DNA of 64,000 bases from NCBI GenBank assembly GCA_026398275.1, contig JAPLTF010000072.1, positions 62,001 through 126,000 of the forward strand, written 5' to 3'. Under the pieces are notes generated by a model. That model had not been told where the DNA came from and did not search any database. It saw only the letters and a program-made list of their open reading frames with translations. Below, piece by piece: positions 20,153 through 60,747 of this stretch. This stretch comes from Verrucomicrobiota bacterium. GTDB lineage: Bacteria; Verrucomicrobiota; Verrucomicrobiia; Chthoniobacterales; Terrimicrobiaceae. The translations under genes and the position numbers were made by a program. Positions within the stretch are counted from its first letter, which is position 1. Each line of letters opens with the position of its first letter.

Positions 20153-20165
20153 GATTTCCTCAACG

Positions 20166-22226: not shown

Positions 22227-22356
22227 CCGCGGTCTGTCGCTTGAGGAGCGCTCAAATGGCAGCGGCAGACGCGGCGACTTCACTCCGTCGCTCTGGCGAA
22301 AATAGGGTCGGATTTGATGTCATTCCCGCATCAATATGGTCAATGTCTGCGCTTCG

Positions 22357-32795: not shown

Positions 32796-32868
32796 CGCAT
32801 GGGCTCCGCGGCTCGAGATGATCGCCATGAGCCGGGAAGCAATGTCCGTCCCGCATAAAACTCTCATC

Positions 32869-34326
32869 ATGGACTCCTCACCACCTCCCCCGGTTTCAAA
32901 CTTTCGCATTCTCGGATACGCGCTCGGGGAGGGAGCGATGTCGATCACGATGAACGGGGTGTCGAACTTCGCCCTCCTCTTCTACACCCAGGTGCTCGGC
33001 CTCGGTGCCGGCTATGCGGGTCTGGCCCTGAGCGTGGCCACGCTCTGGGATGCGCTGGTGGATCCCGTCATGGGCCACATCAGCGACAACACGCGCTCCC
33101 GTTGGGGGCGGCGGATGCCCTACATCCTGGGCGGCGGCCTCCTCCTCGCTTTCAGCTACTGGCTGCTCTGGACCGTGCCGGGCAATATCACCTCGCCCCA
33201 GGCGCTGTTCGCTTTTGCCCTCGGGGGCAACCTGCTGCTCCGCACGGCGGTTGCGATCTTCGGCGTGCCCTTCAATGCGCTGGGTTTCGAGATTTGTCCG
33301 ACCTACGAGGATCGTTCGCGCCTTCAGGGCATCCGCACAGCCTTTAACATGGCGATCAACCTTATCTTCGGCGCGTTCGCCTGGGCGATCTTCTTCCGTG
33401 ACGGGGCCGGGGCCGACGGCGCGCGAATCGACGGCACGAAAATCGCGGGAAACTACGCCACCATGGGGTGGGTGCTGGCGGGTTCGGCGGCGCTGCTCGT
33501 CGTGCTTTGTGTTTGGACCACCCGCCATGCCGCGAAGGACAATCGGGCCTCGAAGGTCCAGGGCAACAGCCTGGCCGCCTTTCGCAAGGATCTCTTCCAA
33601 ATTTTCGGGGACCGCCTGGCCTGGTTCGTCTTCGGATTCTTTTCCATCGCGCTCTTTGCCATGCTCCTGGTCTCCCAGTTGCAGATGTTCGTCTATGTCT
33701 TCTTCATGAAGCTTCCGGCGGATGCCAAGACGTGGATCCACGGCAGCGGGATGGTGGCGGCCGGCCTCGGGGCGCTCCTCCAAACATGGATCACGAAACG
33801 ATCCGACAAGAAAGTCGCCGGGTATATCGCCATGGCATCGTCCATCTTGGGGGGAAGCCTCCTCCTGGTGCTCTTTTTCGGATTCAAACTCCCTCCCGAC
33901 GCCTCATGGCAGTTGGCAGGCACAGCCATCCCTATCGGCTTCATTCTTTTCGGGCTCTGTCAGGTGCTCTGGTGGGGCGGGTGCGGGATGCTCGGACCGA
34001 TCGCCGCGTCGATGGTGGCCGACCTGTCCGAGATCAACTTTCTCAAGTCGGGCATTTTGAAAGACGGCACCTACAGCGCGGTCTTCATGTTTATCACCAA
34101 AGCTGCCATGTCCGTCGGTCTTCTCCTCACCGGCTGGATGGTCGCCGCAGCCGGCATCGTCTCGGGCGCAGAAATCCAAACTCCCGAGGCCGTGCGCAAC
34201 ATCGCCCTCATGACCTTTCTCGTCGGACCCGTTCTTATCGTCATCGCGTTCTTCGCCCTCTGGCGATACCCGGTTGACCGCGACTACCTGCGGAACCTTG
34301 AGAAACCTGGATTATCCGATCACTGA
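32869..34326 (+). CDS. GPH-family sugar/cation symporter
   Basis: The 485-aa product has 12 predicted membrane segments and the GPH (MelB-like) loop signature DPVMGHISDNTRSRWGRRMPYIL. Such carriers import glycosides, pentosides or hexuronides with Na+ or H+. It follows the binding-module gene, so uptake of released oligosaccharides is likely. ATG 32869 is chosen as it leaves a short N-tail; ATGs at 32818, 32827 and 32842 are alternatives, and only 32842 has a purine-rich stretch just ahead. Its stop overlaps by 7 bases with the convergent methyltransferase-like gene. Confidence 0.9.
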   Translation: MDSSPPPPVSNFRILGYALGEGAMSITMNGVSNFALLFYTQVLGLGAGYAGLALSVATLWDALVDPVMGHISDNTRSRWGRRMPYILGGGLLLAFSYWLLWTVPGNITSPQALFAFALGGNLLLRTAVAIFGVPFNALGFEICPTYEDRSRLQGIRTAFNMAINLIFGAFAWAIFFRDGAGADGARIDGTKIAGNYATMGWVLAGSAALLVVLCVWTTRHAAKDNRASKVQGNSLAAFRKDLFQIFGDRLAWFVFGFFSIALFAMLLVSQLQMFVYVFFMKLPADAKTWIHGSGMVAAGLGALLQTWITKRSDKKVAGYIAMASSILGGSLLLVLFFGFKLPPDASWQLAGTAIPIGFILFGLCQVLWWGGCGMLGPIAASMVADLSEINFLKSGILKDGTYSAVFMFITKAAMSVGLLLTGWMVAAAGIVSGAEIQTPEAVRNIALMTFLVGPVLIVIAFFALWRYPVDRDYLRNLEKPGLSDH

Positions 34327-37460: not shown

Positions 37461-40337
37461 TCACGGCAGCCGGATTTCCGCGGCGTATTCGGGAACAAGA
37501 GTGACGGACTTGATCTCCGCCGGTTCGTTCGCATTGCCGGTCGGTCGGAAGGCGATCCCGTCGAAAACAATCTTATCGGCATTGGTCTTCCAAGGGACGA
37601 CACGCAGGAACAGCCCGTCGCCGCCGAGCTGCTTGCGCCAGCGCTTCAAGCCGATCTCCCATGGCAGCCCATTGTTGAAGTTGTCGGTGACCAGATGGCT
37701 GTCGAGGAAAGCCCAACCCCGGTCACCGGCGTAGTCCACCCTCAGGAAAATGTCATTCAACTGGTCGAACTCCTTTCGCGGAACCTTGACCACAAGCTGA
37801 CCCTTCTGGGGCTTCACGATGTCCGCCTTGATCTCCCGCTTGGGCAGGGTGAGCGCGTAGCGGGCGAAGGCACCATCCTTCTGCGGTGCGAGCGGACTGC
37901 CCGGCCCGCGCAATGCACCGGCGGGTGGGGGATAGACGGCAAAACTCAGTTCGTTGTTGCCGACGGCCGAGACGCGCAGCAGGTCGCCATCCGCCAGGAT
38001 GTCGTTATCCGATACCACCAGGCGCTGACCGCCCCAGAGTTTGTCGGATTTCAGCGCATTCACCGCCTGCTGGCGCGTGAGGGTCAGCACGGAGAACGGT
38101 TTCCCTCCGACGGGTGTGACTTCGAAGATCGCGCTGGTGCCCGGTTCTGGCACGGGAATCCTCACCAAGCCTTCGTCCTTGGCCGGCGCGGTCCCGGTGG
38201 TCGCCGCGACGGACGATGCCTCGAACGCGTATTCCGCGCTCATTCCCACCGGCGCGAAAAAGACCCACGTGCGGTGCCCATCGTTGTCGAGGCGGGCGAG
38301 CAATTGCGCGGTCGCGTATTTCAAGCGCGCGCCATCCATCTCGAGATTGAGCGGGAGGACCGCCATCGCATCCGCTGCCAGGTCCATACCCTTGTCGTCT
38401 GCCGGCACCGTGATCGTTTCGTCTTTGAGCTTCATCTCGATGCGCACACCCTTGCGCGGCGGCATCTTGAGTTTGTCCTGGTAGTTGTTGAGGAAGAGAA
38501 AGCCGCGATTGCCGTCGATCCGCGCCACGTAGCGAAGATTCTTTGTGTCACCGGGTTGCACCGGCTCGCCGGGCCAGACCGTGACCGTCGGTGTGATCAA
38601 TTCGGGAAAGCCGGTCAGGAAGTTCGCCAGCGGCCGGAGGGCGCGGTAAGAATCCCGCAGGCGGCCGAACTCACCGATGGGCGCAAACCAGTCGTAGCTC
38701 ATGATCGGCATCCAGCGGTCGTAATTGAGCGGACCGCGAGTTCCAGACGGGTTGGTGCCCCCATGGTAGATATACATGCAGAACATGCTTCCCCCGCAGG
38801 CCGCGCGGGTCAGCAGGGTCACCTCCGCACTCTCCGGAGGAACGATCGGGCGCCATTCCGCCTGGATGGGGCACCCGGCGCCCAGTTCCACGTAGCCGAA
38901 GGGATAACGCCAGAACTCTGGCGGCTGGCCGTAATTGTCGGTAAAGGTCGAGGCCACGGTGGGGGCACCTGCCCCGAGAAACGAATAGACGCCCGAGGTT
39001 GCGAGCAGTTCCCCGAGCGGCACAGGCGCACCGCCCCATCCGGTGGTGGTGAAGAGCGGCGCATCCATGCCCGCCTCTTGCGCCATTTTCTTGAGCCGGA
39101 GCAAATGCCCTTCGTCCTCCGCGGTCGGAAAATGGCCATGCCCGTAGCCGGCCCCGGGGAAAGGGTATTCCCAGATCACCGGAGCGCACCCGAGTTCGTT
39201 CTCCGGCTGAACCGCAATGACGGGGCCGCCGTCCTTAAACATCAGTCCTTTAAGTTGCTCCCCGAGCTTTCCGTAGTAACGCTTGACGTAGGCGAGATAC
39301 GCGGGGTCATTGCTCCGCTCCAGGCCGGGCACGCCAAAGAGCCACTGGGGCAATCCGCCGGCCAACACCTCCGAGTTCACAAAGGGTCCCGGCCGCAGCC
39401 AGACATACATGCCGTGCTTGGCGCACAGCTCGACGAACTTCCGGATGTTGCGGTTGCCGGTGAAATCGAACTGCCCGGGCTCCTTTTCCAGATGGCTCCA
39501 GATGACGTAGAACGAGATGGTGTTGAGGCCGCCGGCTTTCATCTTGAGGATGGATTCCTCCCACGCTTCCTCGTTCGTCCGCGTGGGGTGCATTTCGCCC
39601 GCGACCGGCACGAATGGTTTCCCGCCGATTTCGAGACCCTGGCTGGTCACGACGAACTTGGCCCCCTGCGGATTGACCCCGCCCCAGGTGTTGGGGCCGA
39701 CGGGTTGGATCGCCCGGGGCTGCTGTGCGTCGAGCGTGTAGAGCAACTTTCCCGCCGGCGCGGCGGCCACGCCTTTGGCGGGTTCGGCGCGCACCGAGAT
39801 GTTGTCCAGGCCAGGGGTCGTTCCTTTGGCGGCCCAGAACTGAATAGTGATCTCTGTGCCCGACGGGACTTCGGGAACAACCAACACCGCCCGATTTCCT
39901 GGAACGAATTCTTTCACCGCAAGCGGAGTGTTATTCTCCCCAAGAATAGCGACGCCAAGGATTACATCCGGCCCCCACGTTGGCAAAACATCGCATTCCA
40001 AAACCACATCGGCTGTCTCGTTGAGCCTGCCTACCACCTGCTGTAGAAACCCCAATGGCGAGACATTGCAGACCGGCTTATACGGCCCGCTCCGCACGTC
40101 CACGGCATACGTGGCGTCGATGGATTTCTGAGGATCCATTGGGATTGACGTCCAGCCGTGGGGCATACCGCTGCGCCAGCCGTTGGCATCCTCAGCTCCC
40201 AGACCGGATACATCGCTAAAGTCTCCGTTTGTCACGGCGAGATCGTTCTTAGTTTGCGCGGCCGCATTGGCGGCGTAACTGAACATGATCGCAACGGTCA
40301 AAACAGCAGCTTGCGCCAAAGGGCTAAGTTTTTTCAT
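37461..40337 (-). CDS. GH35 beta-galactosidase with N-terminal jelly-roll module
   Basis: From ATG 40337 the product is 958 aa. A signal peptide (VLTVAIMFSYAANAAAQ) is followed by the shared ~160-residue module (VTNGDFSDVSGLGA, ITIQFWAAKG) and then a GH35 barrel: AGGLPQWLFG (near 328), the acid/base Glu in QPENELG (near 379), the nucleophile region CPIQAEWRP and the GGTNPSGTRG signature. Such enzymes remove terminal beta-galactose outside the cytoplasm. The frame continues to ATG 40442, which lies in a 23-bp tandem repeat; by comparison with the gene at 32196 (MKKLNLSARA/MKKLSPLAQA) 40337 is the ancestral start. Last gene of the leftward run. Confidence 0.9.
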   Translation of the reverse strand: MKKLSPLAQAAVLTVAIMFSYAANAAAQTKNDLAVTNGDFSDVSGLGAEDANGWRSGMPHGWTSIPMDPQKSIDATYAVDVRSGPYKPVCNVSPLGFLQQVVGRLNETADVVLECDVLPTWGPDVILGVAILGENNTPLAVKEFVPGNRAVLVVPEVPSGTEITIQFWAAKGTTPGLDNISVRAEPAKGVAAAPAGKLLYTLDAQQPRAIQPVGPNTWGGVNPQGAKFVVTSQGLEIGGKPFVPVAGEMHPTRTNEEAWEESILKMKAGGLNTISFYVIWSHLEKEPGQFDFTGNRNIRKFVELCAKHGMYVWLRPGPFVNSEVLAGGLPQWLFGVPGLERSNDPAYLAYVKRYYGKLGEQLKGLMFKDGGPVIAVQPENELGCAPVIWEYPFPGAGYGHGHFPTAEDEGHLLRLKKMAQEAGMDAPLFTTTGWGGAPVPLGELLATSGVYSFLGAGAPTVASTFTDNYGQPPEFWRYPFGYVELGAGCPIQAEWRPIVPPESAEVTLLTRAACGGSMFCMYIYHGGTNPSGTRGPLNYDRWMPIMSYDWFAPIGEFGRLRDSYRALRPLANFLTGFPELITPTVTVWPGEPVQPGDTKNLRYVARIDGNRGFLFLNNYQDKLKMPPRKGVRIEMKLKDETITVPADDKGMDLAADAMAVLPLNLEMDGARLKYATAQLLARLDNDGHRTWVFFAPVGMSAEYAFEASSVAATTGTAPAKDEGLVRIPVPEPGTSAIFEVTPVGGKPFSVLTLTRQQAVNALKSDKLWGGQRLVVSDNDILADGDLLRVSAVGNNELSFAVYPPPAGALRGPGSPLAPQKDGAFARYALTLPKREIKADIVKPQKGQLVVKVPRKEFDQLNDIFLRVDYAGDRGWAFLDSHLVTDNFNNGLPWEIGLKRWRKQLGGDGLFLRVVPWKTNADKIVFDGIAFRPTGNANEPAEIKSVTLVPEYAAEIRLP

Positions 40338-40419
40338 TCCCATTTGGCCCGATACCCTGAAGTCTGCTTCGGCTTTGCGGGTGAAGGGACCGCGTCCCCG
40401 TGGTCCGAGGCTTTTCACG

Positions 40420-40488
40420 AGGTTCTTTATTTGTTTTTTCATAGGTTCTTTATTTGTTGTTTTATAGGTTCTTTATTTGTTGTTTTAT
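40420..40488. repeat. Three 23-bp tandem repeats upstream of the GH35 gene
   Basis: AGGTTCTTTATTTGTTGTTTTAT repeats at 40443-40465 and 40466-40488 without mismatch, and a third copy at 40420-40442 differs in two bases and one shift. On the minus strand the unit reads ATAAAACAACAAATAAAGAACCT, and the first copy has ATG in place of ATA. It resembles the start region of the free module gene at 32196 (ATGAAACAACTAATGAAAAA), so the array may have grown from a duplicated start region. Confidence 0.75.
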
Positions 40489-40521
40489 AGGCTATAATTT
40501 CAGCTGGCTCAACTCAAAGTA

Positions 40522-40572
40522 TTCATAGTATCAAACAAATGTAGTGTTCACGTTTTATGTTATTAAACAAAT
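40522..40572. promoter_or_regulatory. Two 19-bp direct repeats in the GH42/GH35 gap
   Basis: TTCATAGTATCAAACAAAT (40522-40540) and TTTATGTTATTAAACAAAT (40554-40572) match at 14 of 19 positions, 32 bases (about three turns) centre to centre. Direct repeats with helical phasing are typical of AraC-type operators. They lie upstream of the 23-bp repeats and the GH35 gene, and just after the GH42 stop. Confidence 0.5.
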
Positions 40573-40608
40573 CGTAGAGGTGACTGATCGCCGCCGATTC
40601 GTTTGCGT

Positions 40609-42618
40609 TCACCATGGCAATATCTTCACGCCAAAGCCTTCGATCTTTTCGGGTGCGCCGCGGGCGGGTTGAAACTGCGCCGCCGTTGCGCGCGTGTTCA
40701 CCACAACGCAGCCGGCGGGTTTGCCATCGCCCGTCACGCGGGGCGCGATGATCACGCCCGCATCGGCCGTGGGCCCGGTTTCCGGCGCCAAAGTTTTGAG
40801 GAAGTCGCGCAGCCACCTGTCTTCCGGCTGGGTCCCAAGCAGAATGACCCGCCCCTTGCCGATGGGACATTCCACGATTGCGGCATAACCATCCAGGGGA
40901 CCGCCGGAATACCTGGCAAGAACCCGCTGCGTTGCGCTCGTTTCATAAGCATCGCACCACCACTGACAGCTCACGATTTCTTTTTCCGTCGCCAAACGGG
41001 TCACGCCACCGGGCGGCGAGCGATGGCGGACATGAATGCCCAGCCACTTCTCAAAATCCGCGCCGTAGCAGGCATCGCGGTGCGCCGTCGCCTCGGTCGT
41101 GCGGCACGCGGAAAGCGGCCCCAGGACCCAGGTGCCGCCCTGTTCGACATAACTCTTCATCGACTTTAGCGTCGCGGCGTCAAGTGCCGGAAAATACGGC
41201 GAGAAAATCGTTTGGTATCCGTCCACCGACGCGCCGGGCATGATGACATCGCGGGAGATACCGCACTCCGCAAGCATCCGGTGAAACGCGGTGATGGCCG
41301 CATCGTAGCTGAAGCCGGCGGCGATGGGACTCACGTTAAACTGCCATTGCGAAGGGAGGCCGTAGGTGAGCGCCACCTTGGCCGGAGCGGGTTTGGTGGC
41401 GCGCAGCCAGGCGGCATTTGTTTTCAGCTCGGCGGCGGCGCGGCGGATTTCCGGCGTATTGGCGCATTCATCGCCCCAGGGATAAAGCAGGCTCCCATGC
41501 TCCAGTTCCTGTCCGGCCCAATGCGCGCGCCAGAGCCAGAAACTGACGGCGTCTCCACCAAGCGCATAGGTGAGCCACATTTTCGCGCGCAGCGCACCGG
41601 GGAAATTTGCCCAATCGCTTGCGTTGTCCACCGCCGTCCCCGCGCTATGAGTCGAGGCGGTTTCCGCGAGCCAGAACGGTTTTTTGAGCGGACGCATCCA
41701 GTCGGCCTCAAACGCGTAGCGCATCAGATCATTCGGCCCGGCATAACTGTCCGTGCCGACGAGATCGAGGTCGCGAAACAAGTCGGCGTAATCAATCTGT
41801 TGGTAGGCGGGATTGTGAGCGTTCGTGCTCAGGCCCTTTTTCGTGTGCCGCCGCAACGCTCTTGCCTGGGCGTCACAGAAAGCCACATAGCTGTCGCTCA
41901 TGAAATGCCGGTAGGCGGCGACGAGCGAAGGATGATGCCCGGCACCGACACGCTGCGGATTGGGCAGCGGCACTTGATCGAACGATTGGTATTCCTGACT
42001 CCAAAGCACGGTGAGCCAGGCGGCATTGAGGTTTTCAATCGTGCCAAAATGATTCTTCAGCCACCCGCGAAACGCCTTTTGACAGTTCGCGCAATAACAA
42101 TCCTCCCACAGCTCATTGTCGATTTGCCAGGCGATCACGCCGGGTTCGCGGCCAAACTCCTCGCCCATTTTATCCGCGATGCGCACCGCGTAAGAAAGAT
42201 ATGTCGGTGAGTTCGGGCAATACTGCCGTCGCCCGCCGTGGCCGATGGTCTGGCCGAAAGCGTTCACGCGGAGAATGTCGGGATGCGCCTCGCTCAACCA
42301 AACCGGCGGCGTGGCCGTGGGCGTGCACAGCTGGACCGCAATACCCGCGTCGGAAAACTGTTTCACCGCCGCATGAAGCCAGGCAAAGTTGAAGTCGCCG
42401 TCCTTCGTCTCCATGCGCGACCACGCGAACTCACCAAAGCGCACGAGATTCACCCCCATATCGCGCATCAGGGCGATATCATCGGGCATCTGATCGCCCG
42501 CCACTTCGGGGTAATACGACACCCCCACATAGGGAGGCTCGGGTTGAGCGGACGCAGCACGAACAATTGTGGGTGTGAGTAGGAGAGCAGATAAGATCAA
42601 GGTTTTCATGAGCATCAT
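40609..42618 (-). CDS. Secreted GH42-like beta-galactosidase
   Basis: The 669-aa product has an N-terminal signal peptide (LILSALLLTPTIVRAASA), uncommon for GH42, which is usually cytoplasmic. The barrel shows GVSYYPEVAGDQMPDD, the acid/base Glu in AWQIDNELWED (near residue 168), a Cys-rich CYCANC Zn-type cluster, and the nucleophile Glu in WLAETAST (near 318). Then follow a trimerisation domain and a beta tail ending GVKILPW. GH42 enzymes release beta-galactose or alpha-arabinopyranose. It is followed 23 bases upstream by the sulfatase gene, in the same direction. Confidence 0.88.
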   Translation of the reverse strand: MMLMKTLILSALLLTPTIVRAASAQPEPPYVGVSYYPEVAGDQMPDDIALMRDMGVNLVRFGEFAWSRMETKDGDFNFAWLHAAVKQFSDAGIAVQLCTPTATPPVWLSEAHPDILRVNAFGQTIGHGGRRQYCPNSPTYLSYAVRIADKMGEEFGREPGVIAWQIDNELWEDCYCANCQKAFRGWLKNHFGTIENLNAAWLTVLWSQEYQSFDQVPLPNPQRVGAGHHPSLVAAYRHFMSDSYVAFCDAQARALRRHTKKGLSTNAHNPAYQQIDYADLFRDLDLVGTDSYAGPNDLMRYAFEADWMRPLKKPFWLAETASTHSAGTAVDNASDWANFPGALRAKMWLTYALGGDAVSFWLWRAHWAGQELEHGSLLYPWGDECANTPEIRRAAAELKTNAAWLRATKPAPAKVALTYGLPSQWQFNVSPIAAGFSYDAAITAFHRMLAECGISRDVIMPGASVDGYQTIFSPYFPALDAATLKSMKSYVEQGGTWVLGPLSACRTTEATAHRDACYGADFEKWLGIHVRHRSPPGGVTRLATEKEIVSCQWWCDAYETSATQRVLARYSGGPLDGYAAIVECPIGKGRVILLGTQPEDRWLRDFLKTLAPETGPTADAGVIIAPRVTGDGKPAGCVVVNTRATAAQFQPARGAPEKIEGFGVKILPW

Positions 42619-42640
42619 AAGAATGCAGAGAGCTTGTGTT

Positions 42641-44455
42641 TCAGCGAAGATCCATGGCGCATGGTTCGAGTGTCCAGTCGTTCATCAGGTGCGCGGAGGT
42701 GCCCGGGCGCCAGCTGAAGAGAACCTTCGCGGGACCGGTCTTTTTTGCCGTGTCCCACCGAATGTCCACCGAGCCATCGGGGAGGTTTTCCGCCTGCACC
42801 CATTCCGTGCCCTCGATGACCAGGGCGCTTGAGTCGAGCGGGTCGTTCCTTTCCCCTCGCAGCCGGATCTTCCGGGAGCCGGTCCCTTCCAGCCGGGTGA
42901 GCGCGGCGACGTCGCTATCAACCAGGCTGATCGAGGCGGGGCGGCCCGGCTTTTGGTTGCGGGGCTCGACGGGGTTGCCTCGATACTTGGCATTCCGGAT
43001 CGGAGTCAGCGCGCCGGTCTCCTGCAGATGTTTTTCGATCAACGCATCCAGCTCGCGCACTTTGTCCGGCATGAATGCGGCCAGGTTGACTGTTTCGCCT
43101 GGGTCGCGGCTGAGGTCGAAGAGTTCGTAGTGGTGGGCCGCCGCGTTTTCTCCCGCCCAATAGAATCGCAGCAGCTTGAAATCCCCGAGCCGCACGGAAG
43201 CCGAGGGGGCGCACATCCAGGAGAAATCGTGCGGGAAGTCGAAGAAAATCGGGCGGGTGGTCAGCGGCCCGCCTTCAAGCAGCGGGACCAAGCTGACGCC
43301 ATCAATCGGCTGCCCGGCCGGCGGCACGGCCCCCGCGGCCTGCAGGACCGTCGGGTAAAGATCAACCGTCGAGACGGGCGTGCTGTTGGTGCTGCCCGGT
43401 GTGATGTGCCCGGGCCAGCTCATGATCCATGGCACGCGTGTTCCGCCCTCGTAGGTATTCGCCTTGCCGCCCCGCAGCGGAAGATTCGAGGTGGGGCGGG
43501 CAAAGCCATCCATCTCGTAGTTGACCCCGCCGTTGTCCGAGACAAAGACGACCATCGTGTTGCTCTTGATCTCGTGGTTTTCCGGCCGGTCGAGCCAGTC
43601 GAGAAGAAGCCCGACGCTGGAGTCGAGGCTTTCGATCATCGTCGCCATTTCCGGGCAATCCTGCAGCCCGCGCGGGTCGGTCTTGGCCCGATACTTCGGG
43701 AGCAGATCTTTCTTCGCGACGATCGGCCCATGGACCGCATACGGCCATAAGTTCAGATAAAACGGCTTCCCGGAATCCCGGACGGAATCGAGCCACTTGA
43801 TCGCCTCGGCGCTCAGCCGCTCGTTGAGGTATTCGCCTTCCGGCCCCGGCGTCAGATTGGGAATGGCGAGTTTCCCTTTCCGGTAGGGCGAGTAGTAGTC
43901 GGGTGGTCCCGCGAGATGATCGCCGCCGATGACAAAATCGAATCCCCGGTGCCCGGCGTCGAACTCGCTCGTTTCGTTCTTTGGAGTGGACAGATGCCAT
44001 TTTCCAATATGGGCCGTAGTGTATCCGTCCTGCTTGAGGGCCTCGGCCAGCGTGCGGACTTCCAAAGGAAGGTGGTCCTTTGTCCCGACATCGCCGCAGT
44101 ATTGGTTCTCCTTTGGCTGCAAGGCATTTGGCTCCGCAGTGGCGCGGTTGGGCGTAATCGCCTCGGTGAGATGAAGCCTCGCCGGATATTGTCCGGTCAT
44201 AATGCTGGCGCGCGTGGGCGAACACAGCGGACTGGCTGCATAGGCATCAGTGAACCTCATGCCCTCGCGGGCCAGGCGTTCCAACGCGGGTGTCTCGTAA
44301 TAGGTCGAGCCATACACCGTGCTGTCCGCCCAGCCCAGATCGTCGGCCAGGATCATGATGACATTTGGCTGGGGTTTTTCCTTCCCGGCGATGGCAGTGC
44401 CCAGCACCACGGCCAAGGCGGCGAGGCACAGTGCGCGAAGAAGGGGAGAAGCCAT
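42641..44455 (-). CDS. Secreted S1-family sulfatase
   Basis: From ATG 44455 the product is 604 aa with a signal peptide (LCLAALAVVLGTAIAG). The metal-binding ILADDLG (38-39) and the formylglycine motif CSPTR with Cys 78 mark an S1 sulfatase; the active-site Cys must be oxidised by a maturase not seen here. A C-terminal ~120-residue beta region (DLEPCAMD-type tail) follows the alpha/beta sulfatase core. Its substrate would be a sulfate ester on a sugar of the polymer. It lies between the GH106-like array and the GH42 gene and is 17 bases from the former, so co-transcription is likely. Confidence 0.92.
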   Translation of the reverse strand: MASPLLRALCLAALAVVLGTAIAGKEKPQPNVIMILADDLGWADSTVYGSTYYETPALERLAREGMRFTDAYAASPLCSPTRASIMTGQYPARLHLTEAITPNRATAEPNALQPKENQYCGDVGTKDHLPLEVRTLAEALKQDGYTTAHIGKWHLSTPKNETSEFDAGHRGFDFVIGGDHLAGPPDYYSPYRKGKLAIPNLTPGPEGEYLNERLSAEAIKWLDSVRDSGKPFYLNLWPYAVHGPIVAKKDLLPKYRAKTDPRGLQDCPEMATMIESLDSSVGLLLDWLDRPENHEIKSNTMVVFVSDNGGVNYEMDGFARPTSNLPLRGGKANTYEGGTRVPWIMSWPGHITPGSTNSTPVSTVDLYPTVLQAAGAVPPAGQPIDGVSLVPLLEGGPLTTRPIFFDFPHDFSWMCAPSASVRLGDFKLLRFYWAGENAAAHHYELFDLSRDPGETVNLAAFMPDKVRELDALIEKHLQETGALTPIRNAKYRGNPVEPRNQKPGRPASISLVDSDVAALTRLEGTGSRKIRLRGERNDPLDSSALVIEGTEWVQAENLPDGSVDIRWDTAKKTGPAKVLFSWRPGTSAHLMNDWTLEPCAMDLR

Positions 44456-44472: not shown

Positions 44473-46674
44473 TTATCCCTCTTCCACGAGGAAGATGCTG
44501 GAGAATGGGTTCAATGTCACGGTGCCCGGCAGCGCAAGTGGCGTCATGCTGCCATCGGCAGGGTTGTAGATCTGCATACTTCCGGACGCCTTGCCTTCGA
44601 GGCGGAAGGTGGGCGAGAGCGGCTCGCCGCTGTTGTTGACGACATAGTTGATCCGTCGGCCATCCCGCTCCCACCGGCCGATGAGGATGTTCTTGTTCTC
44701 TGCGTCAAGACGCAGGCGGAAGCTCGCCGGGAAAGCTGGTCCGAGGTTCCCGGCGACCTGCGCGGGGGTAATGACCCTGGCCTCCGCCACGGCCGCCCGC
44801 ACCGCGGCGTGTTCTTCGGGCGAGTCTCCGAGCCGCGGCAGCGAGTCCACCCAGAGCACCTTGCCGCCGGCCTTTTGGAATTCCTCCAATTTCCTCATCA
44901 CGGCCAGAGGCACTAATTCGACACGGGGCATGATCACCGTCGTGTAATCGTCCGGGCCAATGACCATGCGTCCGTCTTTGATAGTGGCCCTCAGGACGGC
45001 TTCGCCGTCGAGCCAGTTGAAATCCGCGCTGTTGGCGAAGAGGTTGTCGATGACCTTTTCAAAGGTGGCCTGCCTCAGCACGGTCTCAGGGCAGTCCGTG
45101 TTATTCTGGGACTCTCCGTAGTTTTTTGGAGTGGGCCGGTAGGCAGCCTGGAATGATTCGATCGGATAATAAAGCGCGATTTGGGAGGCATTGCGCGCGC
45201 CGCGCAGCATGACTCCCAAGCGCCCGATCTGCTCATTGAACTGCCGGTAAACTTCCGCCGGGTATTGTGTCCAATCGATGTAGCTCGAGGCCTGGTTGAC
45301 CCCGCATAGGTAGGCCATGTTGAAGAATTTCACCATTTCCGCCGGCTTCGGACTCAGTGTGGGGGAGGCGCGCTCGACGATGGGATCGATCAGCGCCGTG
45401 ACCATTTCATGTCCGTTCAGCCGCGCCGCTGCCGCCGCGATCTTCGGAGTCCAGTAGGTCCAGTAGTTCCCCGGATCAGGCATCGGGATGTCAACGCCGG
45501 GGGCCTGCTGGTGGCCGAGCGCCTGAAGGAAATTGCCATACTCGATGACGTGCGTGTCGAAACGCTCTTCGAGCAGGAGGTGTCCGCCCGAGATCACGCC
45601 GTTGGCCGCGCACCAATCGCCGATGCGGGCACTGAAGTTCTTCGCGAACATATTACCAACGGTTTGGTAATAGTGACGCCGCACGAGTTTGTTCTCGTCG
45701 GAATTGCCGCTATAGAGCGAGGGAAGCCGGGGCATGAGATCGTAACCGTGTTCTTTTTTGAACTGCTCCGGCAGCCCGTCTACCCACGGCAGGTAGCCTG
45801 CGCCGCCCGGCCTCTGTCCTCCCCGGTGCCAGGTGGCTCCCAGGTGCGGCTCGTTGGTGTAGAACAGATCGATCTGCCCGGCCAGGGCGCCGAGGCGCCT
45901 CGCGTATTCGGCATGCGTCAGATCGACAAATTTGGCCATGGCATCCGGATTGAGGAGGTTGGGGTAGTGGCCGGTGGTCCCGAACCCTTCCATCGTGCCG
46001 CGGCCAGGACTCCCCTCGTCATTGTTAATCTGCTGCATGAAGGCGTGCAGCGCCCATTGGCCGGGCAGGCCGGTGGCTTGGATGGAATCTCCCTGCACCG
46101 GCACGTCGATGCCCGCGTCATAGTCGGGGTGCCCGTCTTTTACCGGATAGAGCGTGGCGCGGACGAACTTCTCCGCGCCCGGCGGCAGATCGATCCGAAC
46201 TGGCTGCGGCCCGTTGCCACGTCGGACCAACTGTGCCAACACCCGCAATTCAAACTTGGGATCGGCCGCAACGACCAAGCCCCCGGCTTGCGGGCTGGGG
46301 TATCCATTTTCATCGCAGACCCACACCTGCATACCGGCTTTCTTGGCCTCCCGGATATTGGTTGTCATCGATTCCCACGCCTCCTCATTTCGGAGGTAGT
46401 TGTGCCTGCTCAGGAAGAGTTCCACTCCGCCGATGCCATACTCGCGCATTTTGGCAATCGGCATGATGGCACCTTCATGGCCGCTGTATTGAACCACCCG
46501 GTATTGGTTGGGCGGGTTGCGGAAGTCGGAGTCGATCCGGGTCCATGCAGCAGAGGGTTTCTTCGCGCAGCCATTGACCAGGCCAGTGGCCATCACCGCT
46601 CCGAGGACGAGGAGAAAGGCATGGCACCAGAATGACGTTTTCTTCCTCAAGCTTGTCGTGTGGGCATGTTTCAT
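44473..46674 (-). CDS. GH106-like lipoprotein, tandem copy 1
   Basis: The 733-aa product is a lipoprotein precursor: hydrophobic segment then VNGC-AKKPSA lipobox. The mature N-terminus is FRNPPNQYRV, KMREYGIGGVELF and AGMQVWVCDENGYPSPQAGG, as in GH106-like proteins. Two Glu-rich motifs are kept, FYTNEPHLG (near 270) and GGHLLLEERFD. A C-terminal beta domain follows. Compared with copies 2 and 3 it has the most divergent middle (residues about 370-540), but its last ~150 residues are almost identical to copy 2. It probably acts at the outer membrane on a rhamnose-type sugar; substrate unproven. Confidence 0.78.
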   Translation of the reverse strand: MKHAHTTSLRKKTSFWCHAFLLVLGAVMATGLVNGCAKKPSAAWTRIDSDFRNPPNQYRVVQYSGHEGAIMPIAKMREYGIGGVELFLSRHNYLRNEEAWESMTTNIREAKKAGMQVWVCDENGYPSPQAGGLVVAADPKFELRVLAQLVRRGNGPQPVRIDLPPGAEKFVRATLYPVKDGHPDYDAGIDVPVQGDSIQATGLPGQWALHAFMQQINNDEGSPGRGTMEGFGTTGHYPNLLNPDAMAKFVDLTHAEYARRLGALAGQIDLFYTNEPHLGATWHRGGQRPGGAGYLPWVDGLPEQFKKEHGYDLMPRLPSLYSGNSDENKLVRRHYYQTVGNMFAKNFSARIGDWCAANGVISGGHLLLEERFDTHVIEYGNFLQALGHQQAPGVDIPMPDPGNYWTYWTPKIAAAAARLNGHEMVTALIDPIVERASPTLSPKPAEMVKFFNMAYLCGVNQASSYIDWTQYPAEVYRQFNEQIGRLGVMLRGARNASQIALYYPIESFQAAYRPTPKNYGESQNNTDCPETVLRQATFEKVIDNLFANSADFNWLDGEAVLRATIKDGRMVIGPDDYTTVIMPRVELVPLAVMRKLEEFQKAGGKVLWVDSLPRLGDSPEEHAAVRAAVAEARVITPAQVAGNLGPAFPASFRLRLDAENKNILIGRWERDGRRINYVVNNSGEPLSPTFRLEGKASGSMQIYNPADGSMTPLALPGTVTLNPFSSIFLVEEG

Positions 46675-46711
46675 AAAGGAGATAAAAAAAGAGTCTGGCT
46701 GCGGGAAGGGG

Positions 46712-48931
46712 TCAATCGCTTTCGATCAGAAACAGGGTCGAAAATGGCGGCATGGGCATTTCTGCAGGCAATGTTTGCGGCGTTATGCTGCCATCGGCAG
46801 GGTTGTAGATCTGCACACTTCCGGACGCCTTGCCTTCGAGGCGGAAGGTGGGCGAGAGCGTCTCGCCGCTGTTGTTGACGACATAGTTGATCCGTCGGCC
46901 ATCCCGCTCCCACCGGCCGATGAGGATGTTCTTGTTCTCCGCGTCAAGGCGCAGGCGGAAGCTCGCAGGGAAAGCTGGTCCGAGGTTCTCGGCGACTTGC
47001 GCGGGGGTAATGACCTTGGCATCCGCCACGGCCGCGCGCACCGCCTCATGTTCTGCGGGCGAGTCTCCGAGGCGCGGCAGCGAGTCCACCCAGAGCACCT
47101 TGCCGCCGGCCTTCTCGAACTGCTGGAGCTTTTGCATCACCGGAAGCGGCAGCAGTTCGATCCGGGGCATGATGATGGACGTGTATTCGTGCGCCCCCAT
47201 GATCAGGCGTCCCGCACGGATTTCCGCCTTCAGCACCGCGTCGCCATCCACCCAACTGAAGTCGTAACCATGCTCGAAGAGGCTGGGAATGATCTGCTCC
47301 TGGGTCTCCTCCATGAGGATCATCTGCGGGTCGTAGTTGGCCGGTTTTGACTTGATGTCAATCGGGCACAGCGTCACCGGGACCGGGCGGAAGGTGGATT
47401 GAAAAGATTCGATCGGGTAATAGAGGGCGACGTTCGAGGCGTTTTTTGCGCCTCTCAACATAAGCGCCAGCCGCCCAACCTGCTCGTTGATCTTCCGATA
47501 AACTTCGGCCGGGTATTTGTCCCAGAAAGAGTAACTGCTCACATGGTTGACGCCGCATAAGAAGGCCACGTTGAGGTAGCGCATGACCTGCTCCAACGTG
47601 GCGGTCACGAAGCTCATGTCGCCCTTCCGGTCGATGAGCGGGTCGAGCAGGCAGGTGACCTCCTCGCGGTTTTGCAGCTGGGCGACGGAGCTGGTCAGCT
47701 TCGGCGACCAGTAGGTCCAGTGGTCGCCGGGATCCGGCATCGGAATGTCGCACCCGGGAACATGCTGCTGCTGCATGGCCTGAAAGTAATTGCCGGAGCA
47801 AATGACGTGCATGTCCATGCGCTCCTCGCCAAAAAGGTGTCCGCCGGATTTGACGCCATTCTCCCCGCACCAGCGCGCGAAGCGTCCGGTGATGTTCTCG
47901 GTGTAGATGTTCCCGATGGTCTGGTAAAAATGCCGGCGCACCAGCTTGGCCTCGTCGCTCTCCCCCGCGTAGAGGGCGGGAAGGAATGGCATGAGGTCGT
48001 AGCCGTGATCCTGGCGGAAACGTTCCGGCAGTGCCGCACTCCATGGGAGATAGGAAACGCCGCCCGGTCGCTCTCCTCCGGTGTGCCAGATCGACCCAGG
48101 GTGCGGTTCGTTGGTGTAGAAAAGATCGATCTGGCCGGCGAGGGACCCGAGACGGCGCGCATATTCGGCGTGGGTCAGATCGACAAATTTGGCCATGGCC
48201 TCGGGATCGAGCAGGTTGGGGTAGTGCCCGGTGGTCTTGAATTGTTCCATCGTGCCGCGGGCCGGACTTCCCGCGTCGTTGTTGATCTGCTGCATGAAGG
48301 CGTGGAGCGCCCACTCGCCCGGCAATCCCGTGGCTTCGACGAAATTTCCCTGCACCGGCACCTCGGTGCCTGCGGCGTAATCGGGTTGCCCGTCTTTGAC
48401 GGGATAGAGCGTGGCGCGGACGAACTTCTCCGCGCCCGGCGGCAGGTCCATCCGCACCGGCTGCGGCCCGTTGCCGCGTTGGACCAAGGGGGCCAAGACC
48501 CGCAATTCAAACTTGGGATCGGCCTCGACGACCAAGCCCCCGGCCTGCGGGCTGGGGAAGCCGTTGTCATCGGCGACCCACACCTGCATACCGGCCTTCT
48601 TGGCCTCCCGGATGTTGGTGATCATGGCGGCCCAGGCCTCCTCATTGCGCAGGTAGTTGTGCATGCTCATAAAGAGCTCCACCCCGCCGATGCCGTGCTC
48701 GCGCATCTTGGCAATCGGCACGATGGAACCATCGTGGCCGCCGAATTGGACGATCCGGCAATCGTTGGGCGGGTTGAGGAACTCGGAGTCGATCCGCGCC
48801 CAGGTGGCCGAGGGCTTTTTCGCGCAGCCATGGACCAGGCCAGTGGCCATTACGACCGCGAGGCCGAGCGAGAAGGCGTGGCGCGAGGATGAACGTTTTT
48901 TGCTCAGGTTTGTTGCCGGGGTTTGTTTCAT
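46712..48931 (-). CDS. GH106-like lipoprotein, tandem copy 2
   Basis: The 739-aa product has the same layout as its neighbours: lipobox VHGC-AKKPSA, FLNPPNDCRIV, KMREHGIGGVELF, FYTNEPHPG and GGHLFGEERMDMH. The middle is nearly identical to copy 3 (for instance NYDPQMILMEETQEQ), while the end is nearly identical to copy 1. The gap to copy 1 is 37 bases and to copy 3 36 bases, so all three form one operon and arose by tandem duplication. No residue of the conserved Glu motifs is lost. Confidence 0.78.
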   Translation of the reverse strand: MKQTPATNLSKKRSSSRHAFSLGLAVVMATGLVHGCAKKPSATWARIDSEFLNPPNDCRIVQFGGHDGSIVPIAKMREHGIGGVELFMSMHNYLRNEEAWAAMITNIREAKKAGMQVWVADDNGFPSPQAGGLVVEADPKFELRVLAPLVQRGNGPQPVRMDLPPGAEKFVRATLYPVKDGQPDYAAGTEVPVQGNFVEATGLPGEWALHAFMQQINNDAGSPARGTMEQFKTTGHYPNLLDPEAMAKFVDLTHAEYARRLGSLAGQIDLFYTNEPHPGSIWHTGGERPGGVSYLPWSAALPERFRQDHGYDLMPFLPALYAGESDEAKLVRRHFYQTIGNIYTENITGRFARWCGENGVKSGGHLFGEERMDMHVICSGNYFQAMQQQHVPGCDIPMPDPGDHWTYWSPKLTSSVAQLQNREEVTCLLDPLIDRKGDMSFVTATLEQVMRYLNVAFLCGVNHVSSYSFWDKYPAEVYRKINEQVGRLALMLRGAKNASNVALYYPIESFQSTFRPVPVTLCPIDIKSKPANYDPQMILMEETQEQIIPSLFEHGYDFSWVDGDAVLKAEIRAGRLIMGAHEYTSIIMPRIELLPLPVMQKLQQFEKAGGKVLWVDSLPRLGDSPAEHEAVRAAVADAKVITPAQVAENLGPAFPASFRLRLDAENKNILIGRWERDGRRINYVVNNSGETLSPTFRLEGKASGSVQIYNPADGSITPQTLPAEMPMPPFSTLFLIESD

Positions 48932-48967
48932 AAAGTGGAGAAAAAATGGGCGGTGGGCCGTGGGGCC

Positions 48968-51163
48968 TTAGTCGCCCTCGACCAGAAAGAGACTCGAAGA
49001 GGGCGGCATGGTCAGTTCGGCCGGCAGGGTTTGGGTCGTGATGGTGCCATCAGCCGGGTTATAGACCTGCACGCTTCCGGAGGCCTTCCCCTCGAGGCGG
49101 AATCGCGGGCTCACGGCGGCACTGCCCTTGTTGACCACGTAATTGATTCTGCGTCCATCGCGCTCGAACCGGCCGATCAGGATGTCCTTGTTCTCCGCGT
49201 CGAAGCGCAGCCGAAAGCTGCCCGGGAACGCTTCGCCCAGAGACCCGACGACCTGCTCGGGAGTGATGGTGGCCACGCCGGCCACGGCTGCGCGCACCGC
49301 GGCATGCTCTTCGGGCGCGTCTCCAAGGCGGGGCACCGCGTCCACCCAGAGCACCTTGCCGCCGGCCTTTTGGAATTCCTCCAGCTTCTTCATCACGGCC
49401 AGAGGCAGCAGTTCCACCCGGGGCATGACGATGGTCGTGTAATCATGGGAGCCAACGACCAGCCGCCCGCCGGATAGTTTCGCGGCGAGGACGGCGCCGC
49501 CGTCGAGCCAGCTAAAATCAGCCCCGTGCTCGTAAAGGTTTTGGATCACCTGCTCCTGGGTCTCCTCCATGAGGATCATCTGCGGGTCGTAGTTGGCCGG
49601 TTTTGACCTGATGTTGATCGGGCACAGAACCCCCGGGACCGGGCGGAAGGTGGATTGGAAAGATTCGATCGGGTAATAGAGGGCGACGTTCGAGGCGTTT
49701 TTTGCGCCTCTCAACATAAGCGCCAGCCGCCCGACCTGCTCGTTGATCTTCCGGTAGGCTTCGGGAGGGTATTTGTCCCAGTAAGAGTAACTGCTGATAT
49801 GGTTGACGCCGCATAAGAAGGCCACGTTGAGGTAGCGCATCACCTGCTCCAACGAGGCGGTGAGGAAACTGGTGTCTCCCTTCCGGTCAATGAGCGGGTC
49901 GAGCAGGCAGGTGACCTCCTCGCGATTTTGCAGCTGGGCGACGGAGCTGACCAGTTTCGGCATCCAGTAGTTCCAGTGATCGCCGGGATCCGGCATCGGG
50001 ATGTCGCACCCGGGAGCCTGCTGCTTCTGCAATGCCTGGAAGTAGTTGCCGGAGCAAATGACGTGCATGTCCATGCGCTCCTCGCCAAAAAGGTGTCCGC
50101 CGGATTTGACGCCATTCTCCCCGCACCAGCGCGCGAAACGTCCGGTGATGTTCTCCGCGTAAATGTTTCCGACGGTCTGGTAAAAATGTCGGCGCACCAG
50201 CTTGGCCTCGTCGCTCTCCCCCGCGTAGAGGGCGGGAAGGAATGGCATGAGGTCGTAGCCGTGATCTTGGCGAAAACGTTCCGGCAGTGCCTCGCTCCAG
50301 GGGAGAAAGGACATGCCGCCCGGTCGCTCTCCTCCAGTGTGCCAGATTGACCCGAGATGCGGTTCGTTGGTGTAGAAAAGATCGATCTGGCCAGCAAGCG
50401 GCCCGAGGCGGCGCGCATATTCAGCGTGGGTCAGATCGACAAATTTGGCCATGGCATCCGGATTGAGCAGGTTGGGGTAGTGGCCGGTGTTTCCAAAGCC
50501 CTGCATGGTGCCGCGGGCCGGACTTCCCGCGTCATTGTTGATCTGCTGCATGAAGGCATATAGCGCCCATTGGCCGGGCAGGCCGGTGGCTTGGATGGAA
50601 TCTCCCTGCACCGGCACGTCGATGCCCGCGTCGTAGTCGAGCCTCCCGTCTTTTATGGGGTAGAGCGTGGCGCGGACGAACTTCTCCGCGCCCGGCGGCA
50701 GGTCGATCCGCACCGGCTGCGGCCCATTGCCGCGTTGGCTCAATTGGGCCAGGACCCGCAATTCAAACTTGGGATCCGCGGCGACCACCAGTCCCCCGGC
50801 CTGTGTGCTGGGATAGCCGTTGTCGTCGGCCACCCAAACCTGCATGCCGGCTTTCTTGGCCTCCCGGATGTTGGCGATCATTGCTGCCCAGGCTTCCTCA
50901 TTGCGCAGGTAGTTGTGCACGCTCATAAAGAGCTGCACCCCGCCGATGCCATACTCGCGCATTTTGTCGATCGGCACGATGGATCCATCGTGGCCGCCGT
51001 ATTGGACGATCCGGCAATCGTTCGGCGGGTTGAGGAACTCGGAGTCGATCCGGGTCCAGTCGGCGGATGGCTTTTTCGCGCAGCCCGCAAGCAGGCAGGC
51101 GGCGACAAGTGCTCCGAGACACGCGAAGACGGCTCTGGGGCGGAAGGATATCGGGCTCTTCAT
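48968..51163 (-). CDS. GH106-like lipoprotein, tandem copy 3
   Basis: From ATG 51163 the product is 731 aa with a signal peptide and lipobox LLAGC-AKKPSA, followed by FLNPPNDCRIV and KMREYGIGGVQLF. It retains FYTNEPHLG and GGHLFGEERMDMH. The end region differs from copies 1 and 2 (ends PPSSSLFLVEGD). The open frame continues to 51418 but that region is not protein-like for this family. As the first gene of the leftward run it is closest to the presumed promoter, although no clear promoter was found in 51164-51200. Confidence 0.78.
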   Translation of the reverse strand: MKSPISFRPRAVFACLGALVAACLLAGCAKKPSADWTRIDSEFLNPPNDCRIVQYGGHDGSIVPIDKMREYGIGGVQLFMSVHNYLRNEEAWAAMIANIREAKKAGMQVWVADDNGYPSTQAGGLVVAADPKFELRVLAQLSQRGNGPQPVRIDLPPGAEKFVRATLYPIKDGRLDYDAGIDVPVQGDSIQATGLPGQWALYAFMQQINNDAGSPARGTMQGFGNTGHYPNLLNPDAMAKFVDLTHAEYARRLGPLAGQIDLFYTNEPHLGSIWHTGGERPGGMSFLPWSEALPERFRQDHGYDLMPFLPALYAGESDEAKLVRRHFYQTVGNIYAENITGRFARWCGENGVKSGGHLFGEERMDMHVICSGNYFQALQKQQAPGCDIPMPDPGDHWNYWMPKLVSSVAQLQNREEVTCLLDPLIDRKGDTSFLTASLEQVMRYLNVAFLCGVNHISSYSYWDKYPPEAYRKINEQVGRLALMLRGAKNASNVALYYPIESFQSTFRPVPGVLCPINIRSKPANYDPQMILMEETQEQVIQNLYEHGADFSWLDGGAVLAAKLSGGRLVVGSHDYTTIVMPRVELLPLAVMKKLEEFQKAGGKVLWVDAVPRLGDAPEEHAAVRAAVAGVATITPEQVVGSLGEAFPGSFRLRFDAENKDILIGRFERDGRRINYVVNKGSAAVSPRFRLEGKASGSVQVYNPADGTITTQTLPAELTMPPSSSLFLVEGD

Positions 51164-58485: not shown

Positions 58486-58497
58486 AAAAACTTGATC

Positions 58498-60747
58498 ATG
58501 TCTTCATTACTTTCCTTACCAGAGCACGCCCGAAAAACAGACAGCTACACAGCCTTGCGCGGACATTTTGCTCTGGCGAACGAGGAGGCCTGTCGTCTGC
58601 TAATCGCGGGAGCGGGTTGGTTTCAGGTTTGGTTGGATGGGAAGTGGATCGCGGAAGGGCCCGCCCGTTTTTTGGAAGGAAAAGCGAAGGCGGAGACTTT
58701 TGCGTTGGTGATTCCGGCGGGGGGGCACGTCTTGGCCGTGGTCTTGAATCACCTGGATGTGGAGACCCGGCTTTTGAAAAAGATGGAGCCGTTTTTGGAT
58801 GTGCAATTAGGCTTGGCGGGAGGTGAGGGAGTGGACTTGTCGTGGAGGGCCGCCCCGTTGGAGGGATATCGTCCGGCGGTGCGTCGAATCAATCCGCAGT
58901 TGGGGTGGTGCGAGTGGTGTGATACCAGGCTGAATCCGGCCGGTTGGCAGGAGTTGGGGTTTGAGGATGGTTCCTGGGAGGCGATCAAAACGCAGCCGCG
59001 GACGGCGGAGTTCAGTCCCTTGCGTTTAAATGCGGTCCAGCAGTTTTCCCATGACCTGACGGCGGTGGCGGAAGGGCGATGGGTGGACCGGTTCGGCTAC
59101 GAGTCCGACGATCCGCCGGTGCGGTTTTTTCTGAGGGATTTGACTTCACGGGATTTGCCACCCCAGGGGGTGTGGCGGCGTTTCGATCTGGGCCGTGTGC
59201 GTTTGGGCCGAGCGCAGGTGGTTTTGGATGTGCCTGCCGGGACCGTCGTGGAAATGGCCTACAGCGAAACGCTGTGTGACGACCGGGTGAGTCCGTTTAT
59301 CAACCTGTCCGCTGGCACGTCCTGCAATCTGGACCACTACGTGGCGCGCGGCGGCGTGCAGGAGTTTGGTCCGTTGACGCCTCGCGGGGGCCGCTATCTG
59401 GAGGTGCACGTCTATGGGCCAGAAGAAGCGATCCGATGGGTGGCAGTGCGGTTCCAAGAGCGGTGTTATCATGGGCCTGCCGAAGGGGCATTTACTTGCG
59501 ATGACGTTTTATTGAATCGGATCTGGGCGGTCGGCGTGGAGACCTATCGGGCTTGCGCGGAGGATGCCGTGATCGACAATCCGACCCGGGAGCGGGGGCA
59601 GTGGACGGGCGACGTCGTATCGGTGGGGCTGGACATTGCCAGTGTGGCCTACGGAGATTTGCGGTTGCTGCGAAGGGGGCTGATTCAAAGCGCGCAATCG
59701 GCCAAACCCTCGGGCTTGGTCGCGGGACTGTGCCCGGGAGGAGATGTTTTTCTGGGCAGCTACGCCGCGCAGTGGATCACCGCCTGCCTCCAATACTATC
59801 AGGCCACCGGGGATAAAACCTTGCTGGAGGAAGGATTCCCTTACGCGATCCGCAATCTCGAGGCCTTTGATCCGTTTCTGAAAGAGACAGGGTTGGAGGA
59901 CGGGATTGATTGGCCGTTTATTGATTGGGGGTATGTCAGGAAAGCGGGGGAAATTGACCTGGCGATGAATGTGCATTTGTTGCTGGCCTACCGCTCGTTT
60001 CTCGTGTGGTGCGATCATCTGAAAAACACGGCCGCGCGCGGCAAAGTGGCGGGGCAGGAAACGTCATTGTCCCGGGCCTTGAAGCACGTGGTGGCGGATA
60101 AGCTTGCGGGGGGATTTGGGGCATTGGGCTATCATGGAAGCGTTCTGGCTTTGATGGCGGGGCTCGTGGCTGCAGGGAGACGGGGGGAGGGGGTGGGCTT
60201 CGTCAAGGCCCACATTTTAAATTGCTTTCCGAACAATCCCGATGCGCCGCGCTTGAGTGATCCCTCGGCGGATCACGAGCAATTGATCACCCCCTACTTC
60301 GCGCATTATGCGTTTGATTTCTTGATTGCCGAGGGGGAGATGAAGTTTGTGCTGGATCAGTATCGGAAATGTTGGGGCTGGATGTTGGATCAGCAATCGG
60401 GCACCTGGCTGGAAGTATTCGATGTGCGCTGGAGCCATTGCCATCAATGGGCCGGTTGTCCCACATGGCAATTGAGCCGCTATGGGTTGGGTTTGCGTCC
60501 GCGCTTGGACCGGGGGCCGGGCTGCTACGAGTTTTGTTTGCGGCCGGGCGATTTGCTTGGGGCGAAAGGCAAACTGCCGCTGCCGGGTCCTGGCAGGTTG
60601 ATCAGCATTGAGTGGAGCCGGGCAGGAGCGGGCGTTGAGTATGAGATTCGCACACCATTCCCGGTAAAAATCCTGGGGATCCCGGGGCGGAAGATGGAGC
60701 TTGAAGTGGATTCTTTTTGGAAAGGGAAAGTGACGGTCGAGAAGTAA
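58498..60747 (+). CDS. GH78-like alpha-L-rhamnosidase family protein (paralogue 2)
   Basis: The 749-aa product (ATG 58498) is a clear paralogue of the protein at 22357, beginning with LIAGAGWFQVWLDGKWIAEG and containing VIDNPTRERGQWTGDV (the GH78-type acid region) and HCHQWAGCPTW. Sequence agreement runs through both domains. It has no signal peptide. The two paralogues differ at many positions and lie 36 kb apart, so this is an older duplication; each may have a different specificity. There is no obvious operon partner, and it follows the pseudopilin operon by 181 bases. Confidence 0.8.
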   Translation: MSSLLSLPEHARKTDSYTALRGHFALANEEACRLLIAGAGWFQVWLDGKWIAEGPARFLEGKAKAETFALVIPAGGHVLAVVLNHLDVETRLLKKMEPFLDVQLGLAGGEGVDLSWRAAPLEGYRPAVRRINPQLGWCEWCDTRLNPAGWQELGFEDGSWEAIKTQPRTAEFSPLRLNAVQQFSHDLTAVAEGRWVDRFGYESDDPPVRFFLRDLTSRDLPPQGVWRRFDLGRVRLGRAQVVLDVPAGTVVEMAYSETLCDDRVSPFINLSAGTSCNLDHYVARGGVQEFGPLTPRGGRYLEVHVYGPEEAIRWVAVRFQERCYHGPAEGAFTCDDVLLNRIWAVGVETYRACAEDAVIDNPTRERGQWTGDVVSVGLDIASVAYGDLRLLRRGLIQSAQSAKPSGLVAGLCPGGDVFLGSYAAQWITACLQYYQATGDKTLLEEGFPYAIRNLEAFDPFLKETGLEDGIDWPFIDWGYVRKAGEIDLAMNVHLLLAYRSFLVWCDHLKNTAARGKVAGQETSLSRALKHVVADKLAGGFGALGYHGSVLALMAGLVAAGRRGEGVGFVKAHILNCFPNNPDAPRLSDPSADHEQLITPYFAHYAFDFLIAEGEMKFVLDQYRKCWGWMLDQQSGTWLEVFDVRWSHCHQWAGCPTWQLSRYGLGLRPRLDRGPGCYEFCLRPGDLLGAKGKLPLPGPGRLISIEWSRAGAGVEYEIRTPFPVKILGIPGRKMELEVDSFWKGKVTVEK

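Follow-up and report, generated by a model that had tools for sequence, protein, structure and literature searches.

A rare protein clade of Verrucomicrobiota, distantly related to GH106, with altered catalytic positions and a partner sulfatase

The window, by which we mean the whole 64,000-nucleotide stretch of verrucomicrobial DNA analyzed here, encodes four homologous GH106-like proteins. Three of the genes form a minus-strand tandem array, spaced by 37 and 36 nt: P0003 (48968..51163, 731 aa), P0002 (46712..48931, 739 aa), and P0001 (44473..46674, 733 aa). The fourth, P0004 (29865..32114, 749 aa), is on the plus strand. An original prediction, made from the letters of the DNA, had described three tandem homologs at 44473-51163 and a fourth at 29865, and the open reading frames are found at these positions. 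The proteins align from end to end, far beyond chance, with 52-82% identity to P0003. Each of the tandem three carries a lipobox (LLAGC in P0003, LVHGC and LVNGC in the others), in agreement with their earlier description as lipoproteins, and P0004 is a secreted protein with a signal-peptide-like N terminus and no lipobox. Four motifs had been reported as shared, and all four proteins do contain F-x-N-P-P-N, K-M-R-E-[YH]-G-I-G-G-V, N-E-P, and G-H-x-x-x-E-E; the description needs amending for P0004, whose version of the His motif reads SGHPLMEE instead of starting with two glycines.

The tandem genes share their strand and operon with three downstream genes, a formylglycine-type sulfatase bearing a CSPTR motif (42641..44455, 604 aa), a GH42 beta-galactosidase (40609..42618), and a GH35 beta-galactosidase with a long N-terminal extension (37461..40442), all on the minus strand and matching the sulfatase and two galactosidases named in the original prediction. 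P0004 sits behind an AraC-type regulator (27460..28497, plus strand) and a WbsX/GH99-like protein (28614..29837, plus strand) and before an MFS_2 (GPH-type) sugar transporter (32764..34326, plus strand). The regulator (60% in locus L019, 47% in G039) and the WbsX/GH99-like protein (75% and 55%, respectively) are common to the loci of relatives. In L019, the AraC and WbsX/GH99-like genes are followed by copy A and then copy B, after which come the sulfatase, GH42, GH35, a GH43-like gene (assigned by eye), and a convergent GH78-like gene; copy A is the counterpart of P0004 but does have a lipobox (LSAC). The window also contains two GH78 alpha-L-rhamnosidase-like genes (22336..24636 and 58492..60747, both plus strand), and an L-rhamnose isomerase is encoded on the same contig (C116:139487-140722). 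Together with this isomerase, a rhamnulokinase-like gene, BMC shell genes, and an anaerobic sulfatase maturase lie 13-30 kb past the window (G000:C116:139487-155800; L088, L089), and these genes match the fucose/rhamnose microcompartment lifestyle reported for Verrucomicrobiota (PMC5615132, PMC8857213). Two further long frames on the plus strand, at 53926-57519 (1197 aa) and 20127-22226 (699 aa), have no Pfam match at 1e-3.

The relationship to GH106, first drawn by eye, is borne out by profile comparison, yet it is distant. Against Pfam PF17132 the four window proteins score 31.5, 35.5, 28.9, and 31.5 bits (cut-off, 29), with best stretches covering 67-166 residues of the 743 model positions, and against the NCBIfam GH106 model they reach 38-40 bits (cut-off, 1300). 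Typical GH106 genes do score highly here: two that lie elsewhere in this genome reach 640-690 bits to PF17132, which shows that the search performs as it should and that the window proteins are genuine outliers. Across the nine members scanned, PF17132 is the one Pfam family that every member hits. Since a single-sequence search of the PDB returned just a 13-bit match to BT_0986, we turned to profile searches. A superfamily profile (A4), built from 14 sequences and wider than the clade described below, matches the solved GH106 proteins RHA-P (6q2f) at 6e-36 and BT_0986 (5mwk/5mqm) at about 1e-27, in separate stretches that together take in most of the protein (its start, barrel, and C-terminal beta domain); a clade-only profile finds 6q2f at 1.5e-9 and 5mqm at 1e-3. 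On these profile matches we regard homology to GH106, and descent from the GH106 superfamily, as settled. The large insert said to be lacking is indeed reduced, to about 60-75 profile positions compared with about 260-270 residues in 6q2f and 5mwk; the window proteins also lack a counterpart of the last ~180 residues of both structures. AlphaFold2 runs from six sequences gave low-confidence models (pLDDT 41 for the whole protein, 46 for residues 33-512), and Foldseek with the latter model returned nothing but uninformative matches, at a TM score of about 0.1-0.2 to the query.

Relatives of this kind are rare. Counting full-length, same-size proteins at 460 bits or more, we observe the clade in 6 of 388 Verrucomicrobiota genomes (the window's own, G386, G318, G081, G039, and G211), among many other superfamily members. 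Order- and class-level searches add G522 (the genome that holds L019), G528, and G676, which form one genus of another family; neither the genus nor the family of the window genome itself contributed a clade member. No relative turned up in two scans of viral contigs, and plasmid records yielded just distant homologs at 20-25% identity. In a quick maximum-likelihood tree of the 12 clade proteins then in hand, with SH-aLRT as the sole support measure, all 12 form one group (SH-aLRT 100) that falls into two halves, the window clade (99) and a second, sister clade (100). Ordinary GH106 and Ram106B-like proteins fall outside the group. These values support the earlier suggestion of a separate subfamily, or a separate group at the family level, which the tree places near the Ram106B-like side of GH106 along with relatives from other Verrucomicrobiota.

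The catalytic layout is where the clade departs most clearly from its relatives. In BT_0986, the general base is E593, the acid is E461, and the metal ligands are D458, S459, E538, and E561; in the Ram106B rhamnosidases, D458 and E593 are retained, and Glu, His, and Asp stand at the S459, E538, and E561 positions (PMC6828813). In the alignment of 15 clade members, N266, E267, H357, D387, and D422 (P0003 numbering) are invariant. N266-E267 of the TNEP motif (50363..50368, minus strand), with P268, falls on D458-S459 of BT_0986 in every member, which makes D458 an Asn within N-E-P in 15 of 15. H357 of the GGH motif (50093..50095, minus strand) lies at metal ligand E538 and D387 (50003..50005, minus strand) at E561, positions that hold His and Asp, respectively, in Ram106B. 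No Glu is present at the position of the general acid E461. At the E593 position, an ungapped alignment places a Leu, with the invariant D422-P423 of the LDP motif (D422 at 49898..49900, minus strand) two residues later, and all 15 members are without the base Glu; an HMM alignment to RHA-P gives a second reading of the same stretch, in which a two-residue gap puts D422 directly on the base Glu. By either alignment, both residues common to the BT_0986 and Ram106B types, D458 and E593, are changed. The Ram106B-like relatives in the alignment table, by contrast, all carry D-E at 266-267 and retain a base Glu.

The TNEP Glu, put forward earlier as acid/base, retains that likely role, as E267 lies on S459 of BT_0986, where the Ram106B rhamnosidases have Glu. 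A likeness to the Asn-Glu of clan GH-A had also been seen; at the level of sequence, N266-E267-P268 is invariant and might correspond to the acid/base pair that this clan has at the end of strand 4, and the Glu nucleophile expected at the end of strand 7 in that clan does not appear in the stretch around D422, whose only invariant carboxylate is D422 itself. GGHxxxEE had been offered as the source of a second catalytic Glu, and this candidate we reject. Its His occupies the E538 metal-ligand position, and the E361-E362 pair (50078..50083, minus strand), which the window clade and Ram106B-like relatives retain, is replaced by N-Q/D/E (or D-E, L092) in the second clade, which makes it unlikely as a clade-wide obligatory second catalytic carboxylate. 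Judged by conservation, D422 would be the better candidate for base or nucleophile.

Among known systems, the clade resembles the Ram106B enzymes (Tm_, Tn_, Cb_, and Ts_Ram106B; PMC6828813) in having Glu after the D458 position, His for E538, and Asp for E561, and the window clade shares G-H-x-x-x-E-E with the Ram106B-like relatives sampled. It differs from them in the Asn at D458 and the missing base Glu, and its members are about 730-750 aa long and mostly lipoproteins with a sulfatase partner, whereas the Ram106B-type proteins L044, L048, and L049 have 844-1045 aa. With the canonical GH106 enzymes BT_0986 (5MQM/5MWK) and RHA-P (6Q2F) it shares homology over the barrel, middle, and C-terminal beta domains, but lacks the acid E461, the metal ligands D458/S459/E538/E561 as such, the base E593 as a Glu, the ~200-residue insert, and the C-terminal ~180 residues. 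GH106-like Verrucomicrobiota proteins of ~920-980 aa (L026-L035, L054-L065) belong to the same superfamily and carry GYPS, TDEPSLM, and SGGHLLxEE motifs; these are longer, keep D-E and the base Glu, and form a separate clade. We would therefore file the clade apart from GH106 despite the homology, because the base, acid, and metal ligands that define the family are absent from it.

The sulfatase beside the tandem genes appears to be a dedicated partner. At E<=1e-120, an ortholog of it is found in 5 of the 388 phylum genomes, each of them one of the six that carry the clade, and in none of the other 382 (Fisher p = 8e-11, a value that treats genomes as independent though some are related). The exception is G386, which carries a clade member but no partner sulfatase at this threshold. 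Four second-clade loci (L072, L074, L076, and L077) encode a sulfatase 51-57% identical to that of the window, adjacent to the clade member or one to two genes away, with other sulfatases in the same loci at 25-36%; over the second clade as a whole, the identity of the partner is 51-59%. Its best PDB matches, the basis on which we call it S1_16-like, are 9fo1 (S1_16, 4.9e-103) and 6ust (2.4e-96). S1_16 sulfatases such as AMOR_S1_16A (9FO1) and BT3057/BT3796 differ from it in lacking ~110 extra C-terminal residues; known substrates of the subfamily are 4-sulfated galactose/GalNAc, 6-sulfated GalNAc, and kappa-carrageenan ends (PMC10154612, PMC11760155). Taken with GH42 and GH35 in the operon, the S1_16 matches suggest that sulfate is removed from galactose and that the galactose is then removed in turn. 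Very long frames containing a sulfatase domain, possibly fusions, occur at L074:4743-10550 (1935 aa) and L077:5691-9575 (1294 aa).

Sequence comparison shows a GH106-derived clade that is real, distant, and rare, in which the catalytic layout has changed and which a dedicated sulfatase accompanies. Catalysis itself, the residues that act, and the sugar that is cut are what we infer from the observed homology, clade, invariant residues, gene linkage, and co-occurrence. On balance we lean toward the four proteins being active GH106-descended exo-glycosidases with a reorganized active site, acting in a single pathway with the partner sulfatase on a sulfated rhamnose/galactose polysaccharide. They would be secreted or lipid-anchored enzymes from the Ram106B-like side of GH106 that probably work like a GH106 exo-glycosidase, with E267 of N-E-P donating the proton and D422, taking over from the GH106 base Glu, activating water or serving as nucleophile. 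N266, H357, and D387 stand where BT_0986 has the metal ligands that hold the sugar, and the chemistry of the -1 subsite should accordingly differ. The near-obligate S1_16-like partner, acting as an exo-sulfatase, would probably strip sulfate from galactose, and the GH42/GH35 beta-galactosidases and GH78 rhamnosidases could join in dismantling a sulfated rhamnose- and galactose-containing polysaccharide of algal or plant origin. Freed rhamnose may enter the L-rhamnose isomerase/rhamnulokinase/microcompartment pathway of the same contig.

A version of this reading that differs in specificity, and to which we give appreciable, though minority, weight, is a shift to another sugar or bond, for instance sulfated rhamnose/fucose or an arabinose/galactose linkage; the sulfatase would then come into play either earlier or later than the clade enzyme. 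The changed metal-site positions N266/H357/D387, the loss of the E593 Glu, and the near-obligate link with one sulfatase are what such a shift would lead us to expect, and so is the pattern of divergence between the tandem copies. P0001 is 82-86% identical to P0002/P0003 over residues 24-258 and 55-58% identical over residues 259-574, the stretch with E267 to D422; homogenized flanks around a diverged catalytic half would fit copies retained for different linkages. The closest characterized relatives, however, are all rhamnosidases, and no particular sugar is directly indicated. We give similar, slightly lower weight to the full proposal of a new GH family or clearly separate GH106-derived subfamily, in which the base Glu has given way to a shifted Asp, the metal site has been rebuilt, and a new specificity for a sulfated or sulfate-neighboring methyl-pentose/galactose linkage has arisen with one dedicated S1_16-type sulfatase.

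The label "rhamnosidase" is plausible for the four proteins. If they were ordinary GH106 alpha-L-rhamnosidases of an unsampled subfamily, with the same substrate, the same metal-assisted inverting mechanism, and harmless substitutions such as Asp for the Glu base, then PF17132 scores about at or above the cut-off, the two GH78 genes of the window, and the isomerase on the contig would be readily explained, and in Ram106B the acid and metal ligands do vary while rhamnosidase activity stays (PMC6828813). We nonetheless think this unlikely: what the Ram106B and BT_0986 types have in common, metal ligand D458 and base E593, is precisely what is changed in all 15 members. In two second-clade loci, moreover, a longer GH106-like gene stands near the clade member, which suggests a division of labor, so that rhamnose specificity should not be assumed for the clade. 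It is quite improbable that the proteins are non-enzymatic surface glycan-binding lipoproteins on a GH106 scaffold, the array offering several binding specificities, for while the GH106 base Glu is gone, three of them are tandem lipoproteins, and the bacterium has many other glycosidases for cutting, a binder is not expected to keep a set of barrel-mouth residues, and E267, H357, D387, D422, W110, and D113 are invariant across members about 31% identical; that polar residues stay unchanged around the predicted mouth of the barrel speaks for catalysis.

Sulfated methyl-pentose polysaccharides are regarded as a specialty of Verrucomicrobiota, whose genomes hold numerous sulfatases and GH106-like genes that have no assigned substrate (PMC8857213, PMC5615132). 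Because they co-occur across families of the phylum, the glycosidase clade and its sulfatase offer a ready pair for expression and substrate screening. Under the exo-glycosidase reading that we favor, alteration of the two residues that the characterized GH106 types share would illustrate how a catalytic base can shift position in this fold.

The locus has also been reshaped by exchange and recombination. RpoB of the window genome is 81% identical to that of G522 (79% at the nucleotide level), whereas in a comparison of the sulfatase-GH42-GH35 segment (window 37461-44455 with L019:11227-18416) GH35 is 95% identical (96% nucleotide), GH42 95%, and the sulfatase 91%, and copy B of L019 (L019:8990-11209) is 92% identical to P0002. 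With the segment at 91-95% and RpoB at 81%, the sulfatase-GH42-GH35-copy B segment was probably exchanged horizontally between the families, and recently. The tandem copies and L019 copy B are mosaics produced by recombination, the breakpoint lying close to residue 625: copy B is like P0002 to about that residue and like P0003 beyond it (chi-square 228, 0 of 1000 permutations), and the C terminus of P0002 is P0001-like (chi-square 250 against copy B). Finally, a 148-bp relic between GH42 and GH35 in L019 (L019:15286-15433), its second half inverted at CCATGG, is about 90% identical to window positions 31486-31633 inside P0004 and is evidence of a lost, rearranged copy.
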